A stretch of 64,000 nt of DNA, from positions 301,191 through 365,190 of the forward strand of contig NZ_BMLV01000002.1 in assembly GCF_014645495.1 (NCBI RefSeq), read 5' to 3'. The notes below the pieces were generated by a model. It ran no database searches. It had not been told where the DNA came from and worked only from the letters and a program-made list of their open reading frames with translations. Shown piece by piece: positions 7,015 through 10,036 of the stretch (the first letter of the stretch is position 1; each line of letters starts with the position of its first letter). Source of the DNA: Cloacibacterium rupense (lineage in GTDB: Bacteria > Bacteroidota > Bacteroidia > Flavobacteriales > Weeksellaceae). The translations under genes and the position numbers were made by a program.

Positions 7015-7725
7015 ATGACTAGCCAAATTTACTTATCCAAGTGTTCTTCTACCCAAGATGAAGTTATAGATTTTATAAATTCTAATCATCTGCAAGAAGA
7101 TTATTTAGCCATCTATACTTTTAACCAAACTCGTGGGAGAGGACAATATGGAAACATTTGGGAAAACAACCCTCATGAAAACCTAGCCTATTCTTTTGCC
7201 ATCAAAACCCAAAACATCCTTTGTTCTAATATTCTCTTCAATTATTATACCGCAATTGTAGTGCGTGATTTTATTGCCAATTTGACCCAAGAACCTGTAA
7301 GCATCAAATGGCCCAATGATTTAATTCTTAAAAATAAGAAAATATCTGGAATGATTTTCGAAAAAAAAGGAGATTTTTTAATAGCTGGAATTGGCATCAA
7401 TGTTTTACAAAAAAACTTCGAAAATCTACCAAAAGCAGGCTCCATACTCACACAAACGCACCTGGCATTCGACCTAGAAAAATTCGCAAACAGCTTCCAC
7501 CAATATCTTTTTCAGCATTTGGTTCAAAATACTTTCCCGAAAAACATCGCAGAATTGTACAATCAAAATCTATACAAAAAAGATGAAATCGCAGTCTTTG
7601 AAAAAAACCATATCAGACAAAATGGCATAATTAAACATGCTGACGAAGAGGGCTATCTTTGGATAGAACTAGAAAACGAAGGTTTACAGAAATTCTTTCA
7701 TAAAGAAATAGAAATGCTCTACTGA
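7015..7725 (+). CDS. birA: Biotin--[acetyl-CoA-carboxylase] ligase
   Basis: Attaches biotin to the carrier protein of acetyl-CoA carboxylase. The 236-residue protein has the catalytic fold only: GRGQYGNIW (the biotinyl-AMP loop, GRGRxG-like, with TRGRG just before), SIKWPNDL and KISGMIFE, and a short C-terminal SH3-like domain. There is no N-terminal DNA-binding domain, so it is a group I ligase without repressor function. It is divergent from rsfS, and its last 7 bases overlap the end of the converging permease gene. Confidence 0.92.
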   Translation: MTSQIYLSKCSSTQDEVIDFINSNHLQEDYLAIYTFNQTRGRGQYGNIWENNPHENLAYSFAIKTQNILCSNILFNYYTAIVVRDFIANLTQEPVSIKWPNDLILKNKKISGMIFEKKGDFLIAGIGINVLQKNFENLPKAGSILTQTHLAFDLEKFANSFHQYLFQHLVQNTFPKNIAELYNQNLYKKDEIAVFEKNHIRQNGIIKHADEEGYLWIELENEGLQKFFHKEIEMLY

Positions 7726-8816
7726 TTGGCTCGCTTCCAATAGAGGTAAAATGCCAAAGACCCAAAAACAATATTAGGCAACCACATGGCAAAAAGCGGA
7801 GAAAAGAATCCGTCTTCAGAGGAAAGCATCTTAAGCACTTCGAAAGAAAAAACAAAAACAAAGGCAATGCTAATCCCTAAAGCTAAATTAAGCCCCAATC
7901 CACCTCTTTTTTTCTGAGATGATAGTGAAAGCGCTAAAAACGTAAGAATAACCACCGAAATAGGCATAGCAGTTCTTTGATGTAACTCATTAAGGTAAGT
8001 GTTGATATTGCTATTACCCTTATCTCTTTCTCTTTTTATAAATTTAATTAACTCTGGGGTTGTCTTATTTTGACCTAACAATTCATTAGGAAAGAGTTCT
8101 TCTGGTGAATGTTTGAAATTTTGTTCCTTAGTATCTCCATTTTTCAATTGCTCGGTATCATTCTTACCTGAAGTTTTTTCCAAATAATTGCTGATGATAA
8201 AAACTTTTTTCTTTTCATCCCAATAGATTTCTGTAGCATTTATCTGCTGAAGCAACTTCTTATTCTGATCAAACTTTTGGTACAAATAACCAGAACCTCT
8301 ATTGGTTTGTCTGTTGTAACTGTTGATAAAGATATATTCTTGAGGATTGAGCTGAGTAGAAATTTGTTTATTGGCCGTAAACTTTTCTCGGTTCACGGTA
8401 CTCATGGTGTAAATTTCTAATTCGTTTTTTTTGATATTTGACCAAGGCAAAACAAAATGATTAATCATTAAAATAATTGCTGCAATAACCAATGATGTAA
8501 CCAAATAAGGTTTTGCAAACCTATGAAAACTTGCCCCACTACTTATAAAAGCTACAATCTCGGTATTATTGGCTATTCTAGAAGTGAAATAAATTACGGT
8601 GATGAACACCAAAATAGAAAAGAATGTGATAATGTAATACAACATCAAATACGGATAAAAATGCACCAGAAAATAATTGACAGTATAGCCATTAGTTTCT
8701 ATCCTTGGGGCTTTACTCTGCACATCAATAACAACAATGATGATCGACAATAACGCCAGCATAAATACCAACGTCCCTATATATTTTTTGATGATGTAAC
8801 GGTCTAATATTTTCAT
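7719..8816 (-). CDS. LptF/LptG-family permease
   Basis: Membrane component of the lipopolysaccharide exporter that works with LptB. The 365-residue protein has the family topology: about three N-terminal membrane segments, a large periplasmic beta-jellyroll-like region (about 125-275) and three C-terminal segments, the first containing RTAMPISVVILTFLALSLS. MKILDRYIIKKYIGT is a typical LptF/G start. Bacteroidota carry two such paralogues, and sequence reading does not settle whether this is LptF or LptG. It follows tgt by 86 bases in a DUF4296-tgt-permease block that is conserved in flavobacteria. Confidence 0.9.
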   Translation of the reverse strand: MKILDRYIIKKYIGTLVFMLALLSIIIVVIDVQSKAPRIETNGYTVNYFLVHFYPYLMLYYIITFFSILVFITVIYFTSRIANNTEIVAFISSGASFHRFAKPYLVTSLVIAAIILMINHFVLPWSNIKKNELEIYTMSTVNREKFTANKQISTQLNPQEYIFINSYNRQTNRGSGYLYQKFDQNKKLLQQINATEIYWDEKKKVFIISNYLEKTSGKNDTEQLKNGDTKEQNFKHSPEELFPNELLGQNKTTPELIKFIKRERDKGNSNINTYLNELHQRTAMPISVVILTFLALSLSSQKKRGGLGLNLALGISIAFVFVFSFEVLKMLSSEDGFFSPLFAMWLPNIVFGSLAFYLYWKRANQ

Positions 8817-8902: not shown

Positions 8903-10036
8903 TTAAAGTCTTTGTCTCAATTGCGGAATAATCTGCTCTTTCCACTCATAGAAATCACCAGCTATAATGTGTTCTCTGGCTACTTTTACCAAATCTAAGT
9001 AAAAAGCCAAATTATGAATAGATGCAATTTGCTTTGCTAAATATTCTTTGGCTACAAATAAATGACGTACATAGGCCTTGCTGTAATCTCTATCTACATA
9101 GCTGGTCCCAAATTCATCAAGAGGAGAAAAATCTTTTTCCCATTTTTTATTCTTCATATTCATCACCCCTTGCCACGTGAAAAGCATAGCATTTCTGGCA
9201 TTTCTAGTCGGCATCACACAATCCATCATATCTATCCCAAGACCTATGCTTTCTATAATATTCCAAGGTGTGCCTACTCCCATTAAATATCTAGGTTTTT
9301 CTTTAGGTAAAATATCGGTCACCTCATCGGTAATTCTATACATCTCTTCTTCGGGCTCCCCTACAGAAAGTCCGCCAATGGCATTACCATCCGCTCCTGC
9401 TTCGGCGATAACTTCTGCCGAAATTTTTCTTAAATCAGAATAGGTAGAACCTTGAACTATGGGGAAAAGATGCTGTTGGTGACCATAGATTTCTTTGTTT
9501 TCATTCGTCCAATCTATACAACGTTTTAGCCAACGGTGCGTAAGCTCCATAGACAATTTTGCCTGGTTGTACTCGCAAGGATAAGGTGTGCACTCATCAA
9601 AAGCCATAAAAATATCTGCCCCAATCTGTCTCTGGATTTCCATAGATTTTTCTGGTGAAATAAAATGATAACTCCCATCGATATGAGATTTAAACTTCAC
9701 ACCCTCTTCACTCATTTTCCTGCTAGAAGAAAGCGAAAAAACTTGATAGCCTCCAGAATCGGTAAGAATAGGCCTATCCCAATTCATAAATTGGTGCAAT
9801 CCACCTGCTTCTTGCATAATCTCCATTCCTGGTCTCAGATATAAGTGATAGGTATTTCCTAAGATAATCTGCGCTTTGATGTCTTCTTTCAGTTCGTGCT
9901 GATGTACCGTTTTTACAGAAGCTACAGTGCCTACAGGCATGAAAATAGGCGTTTCTATTACGCCATGATCGGTGGTTATTTTGCCAGCTCTGGCTTTCCC
10001 AGAACTTGTTTTTTCAATTTCAAAAAATGAATGCAT
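8903..10036 (-). CDS. tgt: tRNA-guanine(34) transglycosylase without the zinc cysteines
   Basis: Exchanges guanine-34 for a queuine precursor in tRNAs with GUN anticodons. The 377-residue protein keeps the catalytic core: LTDSGGYQVFS with general acid/base Asp93, DECTPYPCE, GGLSVGEP and nucleophile Asp272 in MDCVMPTRNARNA. In canonical bacterial enzymes a CxCxxC segment plus a His binds zinc. Here the aligned positions are Gly310, Ser312 and Asp315 (segment EFGTSYVDRDYS); only His341 in IHNLAFYL remains. The rest of the C-terminal region aligns well, so the gene looks intact. It lies 24 bases after the DUF4296 gene. Confidence 0.93.
   Translation of the reverse strand: MHSFFEIEKTSSGKARAGKITTDHGVIETPIFMPVGTVASVKTVHQHELKEDIKAQIILGNTYHLYLRPGMEIMQEAGGLHQFMNWDRPILTDSGGYQVFSLSSSRKMSEEGVKFKSHIDGSYHFISPEKSMEIQRQIGADIFMAFDECTPYPCEYNQAKLSMELTHRWLKRCIDWTNENKEIYGHQQHLFPIVQGSTYSDLRKISAEVIAEAGADGNAIGGLSVGEPEEEMYRITDEVTDILPKEKPRYLMGVGTPWNIIESIGLGIDMMDCVMPTRNARNAMLFTWQGVMNMKNKKWEKDFSPLDEFGTSYVDRDYSKAYVRHLFVAKEYLAKQIASIHNLAFYLDLVKVAREHIIAGDFYEWKEQIIPQLRQRL

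Follow-up and report, generated by a model that had tools for sequence, protein, structure and literature searches.

tRNA-guanine(34) transglycosylase (Tgt) exchanges guanine 34 of tRNAs with GUN anticodons for preQ1. In the canonical enzyme, the third cysteine of a CxCxxC motif and a histidine bind the same zinc ion, and hence occupy adjoining positions. The zinc-binding Tgts that have been described structurally include those of Z. mobilis and human QTRT1. The zinc residues of Tgt have been described as highly conserved (PMC4425180), the zinc domain has been called one of two hallmarks of TGTs (PMC6165067), and TGT has been stated to require zinc for activity (PMC9508795, citing Chong et al. 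1995).

Here, we describe a Tgt that lacks this site, encoded in a 64,000-nucleotide stretch of Cloacibacterium rupense DNA; we refer to the whole of that stretch as the window. No zinc-free Tgt was among the literature matches listed, searches combining Tgt and zinc included, and the literature examined contained no metal analysis or activity assay of any Tgt from the Bacteroidia. Zinc-site-free Tgts are present in sequence databases, and a database remark on missing ligands is conceivable.

Results

A single-copy Tgt without the zinc-site cysteines

The gene and the codons discussed below are as follows, with positions numbered from the start of the window.

8903..10036, reverse strand: tgt, encoding tRNA-guanine(34) transglycosylase without zinc-site cysteines (377 aa plus stop, ATG start)
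9758..9760, reverse strand: codon for catalytic Asp93, equivalent to E. coli Asp89 (alignment; Asp in 193 of 194 rows, one gap)
9221..9223, reverse strand: codon for catalytic Asp272, equivalent to E. coli Asp264 (alignment; Asp in 194 of 194 rows)
9077..9130, reverse strand: codons 303-320, corresponding to the CxCxxC loop of canonical Tgt (alignments to E. coli Tgt and PDB 6ygl)
9107..9109, reverse strand: codon for Gly310, which aligns with Cys302 of E. coli Tgt
9101..9103, reverse strand: codon for Ser312, which aligns with Cys304 of E. coli Tgt
9092..9094, reverse strand: codon for Asp315, at the position of E. coli Cys307 and the proposed partner of His341 (alignment; 80 of 80 rows)
9014..9016, reverse strand: codon for His341, the fourth zinc-ligand position, kept and equivalent to E. 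coli His333 (alignment)

The product belongs to the Tgt family, scoring 487.8 bits against the equivalog model TIGR00430 (cut-off 306.75) and 528.5 bits against PF01702 (cut-off 26.3). The window's genome, which is rated 100% complete, has one PF01702 gene; hence, this tgt is the only copy, and the PF01702 profile search found no second, zinc-type Tgt in that genome. No stop or frameshift was found inside the open reading frame, which is full-length at 377 aa, in keeping with a first-pass annotation of this DNA that had called the Tgt sequence around the zinc site intact. The six residues on which that annotation rested (Asp93, Asp272, Gly310, Ser312, Asp315 and His341) are exactly as it gave them.

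The HMMER alignment places the CHCAVC motif of PDB 6ygl, which we take to be the Tgt of Z. mobilis, opposite the 303-320 loop. Where a zinc-binding Tgt has CxCxxC and a histidine, the window's protein has Gly310, Ser312, Asp315 and His341, and we therefore file it as a zinc-site-free variant rather than as a zinc-binding Tgt. It shares the whole fold, the catalytic aspartates and the preQ1 pocket with the E. coli and Z. mobilis enzymes, in both of which CxCxxC is present; of the four zinc ligands, however, it keeps the histidine alone. Tyr318, Tyr322 and His325 correspond in the 6ygl alignment to Z. mobilis positions 326, 330 and 333, presumably dimer-interface residues. The same four site residues are found in five other members of the family (L032, L033, L034, L217 and L218), so their presence in the window is no sequencing accident.

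Four cysteines remain in the protein, at positions 149, 154, 173 and 273. Cys149 is present in 193 and Cys273 in all 194 of the aligned Tgt rows, whether or not these have a zinc site, while Cys154 and Cys173 vary across the 194 rows. Cysteines elsewhere in the protein replacing the site, the one finding named in the first-pass annotation as overturning its reading, are ruled out by this pattern. The residues at the site and the distribution of the remaining cysteines argue strongly that the window's Tgt binds no zinc.

Predicted structure and a candidate replacement for zinc

The AlphaFold2 model of the window's Tgt (mean pLDDT 90.0) has the Tgt barrel and the C-terminal subdomain. Prediction of the latter had been proposed in the first-pass annotation as a check; ten-residue blocks over residues 291-370, the former zinc subdomain, have pLDDT values of 94-98, so a normal fold is expected there; AlphaFold2 places no metal, and the model therefore says nothing about zinc or about what holds the fold together. 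Parts of the active-site region have lower values (65 and 66 for blocks 91-100 and 101-110, and 70 for block 221-230). VIA-align 2 superimposed model residues 3-374 on T. maritima 2ash (Z 49.0, 1.6 Å over 360 residues) and residues 1-374 on 1pud (Z 48.4, 1.9 Å over 366 residues). Both are zinc-type Tgt structures, and the predicted model matches them over nearly its whole length.

Among 182 Tgt rows from the phylum, Asp315 occurs in 80, each time with His341 and never with another partner. All 80 are from the Bacteroidia, and therefore represent far fewer than 80 independent events. Where position 341 is Gln (29 rows), residue 315 is Ser in 22, Cys, Ala or Val in two each, and His in one; L204 adds Thr to this set. 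This pairing, at positions that adjoin in canonical Tgt, suggests that ordinary contacts, here between Asp315 and His341, probably stand in for the structural zinc.

Catalytic residues, selection and the queuosine pathway

Asp93, Asp147, Cys149, Gln195, Val225 and Asp272 of the window's Tgt align with E. coli Asp89, Asp143, Cys145, Gln187, Val217 and Asp264, and positions 93, 147, 149, 195 and 272 are each conserved in at least 193 of the 194 rows. The catalytic pair of aspartates (E. coli Asp89 and Asp264) is thus present, as Asp93 and Asp272. A preQ1-type pocket has been described as having Val at Z. mobilis position 233, which is associated with preQ1 specificity, and Cys at position 158 (PMC3660597). 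The window's Tgt has such a pocket, with Val225 (E. coli Val217) in the sequence GGLSVGE, and Cys149 (E. coli Cys145). Compared with five family members, synonymous differences are 0.78-0.85, which is saturated, against 0.08-0.11 for nonsynonymous differences; tgt is under strong purifying selection. The conservation of catalytic and pocket residues indicates that the enzyme is very probably functional.

The window's genome encodes QueA and QueG, which act after Tgt in the pathway. Neither QueF nor the QPTR transporter (PF02592) was found in this genome, and QueC gave partial matches alone. Two of these exceed the cut-off of 22 bits (25.3 and 23.8 bits), each spanning roughly one third of the profile and lying in a frame of at least 400 residues, and we take them to be other proteins. 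Hence, preQ1 is probably salvaged by some route, and the organism seems to do so by means of a transporter. Of two papers examined for the pathway, PMC5053529 mentions only homologues of queC, queD, queE and queF, and the examined text of PMC10197588 does not mention queuosine.

Of the phylum's 296 genomes, 291 keep a Tgt; the five that lack one all fall outside the window's class. QueA without a Tgt match was seen in G147, G195 and G199 (family f35, genus g97) and in G040 and G284 (f17). Many genomes of families f4, f8, f17, f23, f24, f28 and others have two QueA-family matches each, and so a second QueA-like protein beyond the single match seen in the window's genome and in numerous others.

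The cysteine triad is absent from the Bacteroidia sampled

The first-pass annotation had proposed a natural zinc-free form, and the distribution of the site supports this reading: the cysteine triad is found in none of 113 Bacteroidia rows (104 aligned and nine further). Across the 104, at most one of the three positions is a cysteine. A cysteine next to position 312, in a loop that is one residue shorter, is seen in seven Prevotella-type rows, and L172, from a metagenome assembly, lacks several loop residues.

The 104 rows are made up of 80 named loci, three plasmid-collection records and 21 rows from the window's class, one of which is the window itself. By NCBI rank, the named loci are 29 Flavobacteriales, 24 Bacteroidales, six Chitinophagales, five Cytophagales, three Sphingobacteriales, two Marinilabiliales, one Saprospirales, two Bacteroidia without an order and eight without an order or class. 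Rows of the window's class are counted as Bacteroidia because a single 101-row clade (support 99) holds them together with all 80 named loci. L099 (a split gene), L101 (a fragment) and L001 (the same as the window) were dropped from the alignment. L209, a 100-base stretch without tgt, was not counted among the further rows.

The site is also missing elsewhere

In other classes of the phylum, the full set of ligands (CCCH) is present in 35 of 78 rows and in three of 10 more, figures that do not represent a prevalence: 30 of the 35 were taken as the highest-scoring PF01702 hits, a choice that favours the zinc form, and all 30 are CCCH. The other 48 rows were chosen mainly to spread over families, and five of them are CCCH. 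Zinc-free patterns in these classes include L.T.S with Gln, L.N.S with Gln, F.N.C with His and F.S.C with His. One family, f30, holds both states, with CCCH in L006, L199 and L200 and FSNH in L066. Separately, the Tgt match in G179 (contig C1:2356013-2357085) is in two pieces in different frames, which reflects a frameshift or an assembly error.

From other phyla, we sampled 17 of the 71 plasmid-collection records that had a match, together with E. coli. CCCH is present in 15 of these 18 rows, and the three without it belong to the Hyphomicrobiales: S. meliloti (SCTN), Sinorhizobium sp. K101 (SCTS) and Methylobacterium (SCAN). Paracoccus and Sphingomonas, also Alphaproteobacteria, keep the zinc site. 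The Hyphomicrobiales enzymes resemble the window's Tgt in being without the site, through a separate loss, but differ from it in keeping one cysteine and in having Asn or Ser at the histidine position. The suggestion in the first-pass annotation that the zinc-free form is perhaps shared by the lineage therefore holds for the Bacteroidia sampled and is too narrow, since other groups of the phylum and the Hyphomicrobiales are also without the site.

Two published observations bear on Tgt function in the Hyphomicrobiales. The phenotype of an S. meliloti tgt mutant, scored as a phenotype and not as Q, indicates a function in vivo (PMC3568095); we take our S. meliloti row, from strain Ak57, to be the same gene as SMc01206. 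The bTGT of Bartonella henselae, another member of this order, gives partial complementation of an E. coli strain mutated in queDF and tgt (PMC11570991); zinc is not mentioned in that paper. Among the plasmid records, those from Klebsiella and Enterobacter (H45-H53) encode divergent Tgt homologues, with 37-39% identity to E. coli Tgt, that adjoin or overlap genes annotated as the 16S rRNA methyltransferases rmtD or rmtG.

On a 103-row tree built with the zinc-loop columns removed and rooted on other phyla, the site changes state seven times, three of these changes being forced by well-supported branches; the loss in Hyphomicrobiales is one of the seven. L100, 14 near copies and 76 of the 80 named loci were left out of this tree. 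An earlier, fast tree of 180 rows gave six changes, one of them forced by well-supported branches. Grouping the zinc-free members of the phylum's 68 rows into one clade was not rejected by an AU test (p-AU 0.32), so repeated loss inside the phylum is likely rather than certain.

Several residues differ in frequency between the two forms within the phylum. Trp299 is found in 126 of 147 zinc-free rows as against one of 35 zinc-type rows, and a residue other than Leu at 337 in 115 of 147 as against none of 35. None of seven candidate compensating positions gave a significant test, with three well-supported independent pairs available.

Zinc-free L36 and L31

C- forms of bL31 and bL36 have been described as paralogues of zinc forms that are made at low zinc (PMC9976891). 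Like the window's Tgt, they have lost a structural zinc site and are still used. They differ in that the described C- forms are paralogues, whereas the L31, L36 and Tgt of the window's genome are single copies, each without its zinc site. With one PF01702 gene in that genome, Tgt there is not part of a C-/C+ zinc-switch pair.

We compared L36 and L31 in 31 chosen genomes, Tgt being of the zinc type in 15 and zinc-site-free in 16 (15 plus the window's own). L36 is zinc-free in 11 of the 16 as against none of the 15 (Fisher p 6.8e-5). L31 and L36 are both zinc-free in those 11 genomes and both zinc-type in the other five of the 16. Genomes with a zinc-type Tgt have the L36 zinc motif in 15 of 15 cases and the L31 zinc motif in 14 of 15. 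On a tree of 29 of these genomes, G001 and G200 being left out, there is one independent pair on well-supported branches and there are five on all branches. With one to few independent events, the link between Tgt and L36/L31 is a lead rather than proof; it may be a sign that structural zinc was lost more widely in the lineage. L31 can lose its zinc site alone, as seen in G294 (family f34), where L31 (C1:1706139-1706372) is zinc-free and the genome's L36 and Tgt keep their zinc motifs.

Discussion

We consider it likely that the window encodes a working Tgt that has lost its structural zinc site, binds no zinc, is braced instead by an Asp-His pair, and took part in a wider loss of zinc. The site would have been lost in an ancestor of the class Bacteroidia or earlier. 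By homology to the zinc ligands, Asp315 and His341 would form a hydrogen bond or salt bridge that pins the loop to the C-terminal helix in most Bacteroidia; in many other sequences Ser may play this part through contacts with His or Gln, position 310 often being hydrophobic. Activity would survive such a loss if, as we suppose, zinc merely braces the subdomain. The change in Tgt would then form part of a broader loss of structural zinc that includes L36 and L31.

What might the site be doing if this account is wrong? A metal could still be bound there through other ligands, such as Asp315 and His341 with water or a nearby side chain. His341 is present in 99 and Asp315 in 80 of the 104 Bacteroidia rows, and both residues are possible zinc ligands. 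We regard this as improbable: just two usual ligands are left at the site, Ser315 is paired with His (18 rows) or Gln (five rows) in further Bacteroidia, the loop of L172 is shortened, and in other lineages all four positions are without a usual ligand (LTSQ and LRSQ). A required metal would not be tolerant of such substitutions. That the protein has no activity, or now serves some other function, is more improbable still. A site described as required for activity is absent, and the window's genome has no QueF, no QPTR and only partial QueC; against this stand the conservation of catalytic and pocket residues under strong purifying selection, the retention of QueA and QueG, and the presence of Tgt in nearly all genomes of the phylum. 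Misalignment, a pseudogene or a sequencing error can be dismissed with near certainty, being refuted by the identical residues in five family genomes and by the uninterrupted frame.

A different question is why the site went, and here neutral drift of a dispensable site is a realistic possibility, if somewhat less than an even one; it does not address what Tgt does. Under drift, the parallel with L36 and L31 would reflect shared ancestry and not zinc economy. Consistent with this, five of the 16 genomes with a zinc-site-free Tgt keep zinc-type L36 and L31, the correlation amounts to one to few independent events, and in G294 L31 alone is zinc-free. Pointing the other way, the three proteins are jointly zinc-free in 11 of the 16, and L36 is of the zinc type in every one of the 15 genomes with a zinc-type Tgt. 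We tentatively put forward, with rather more doubt than confidence, a broader reading in which the Bacteroidia and near relatives underwent a coordinated purge of structural zinc from proteins of translation and tRNA modification that took in Tgt, with its Asp-His clamp, as a tRNA-modifying enzyme, and in which the Hyphomicrobiales lost the site independently, zinc being a removable brace that the chemistry does not need. Were the shared absence of zinc sites from Tgt, L36 and L31 to be borne out, it would point to altered zinc use at the level of the lineage.

Judging by the rows sampled, both a large bacterial class and, through its own loss, the order Hyphomicrobiales manage without a site that has been called a hallmark of the enzyme and required for its activity. 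The role of zinc in Tgt thereby becomes directly testable through comparison of natural enzymes. These observations are also relevant to ideas that tie queuosine to metal supply. For annotation, a Tgt cannot safely be assumed to be a zinc protein.

A gene of the LptF/LptG permease family (window positions 7719-8816) follows tgt on the same strand, and an LptF/LptG-family gene also follows tgt in Bacteroides finegoldii (L193), so this neighbourhood is common to different orders.
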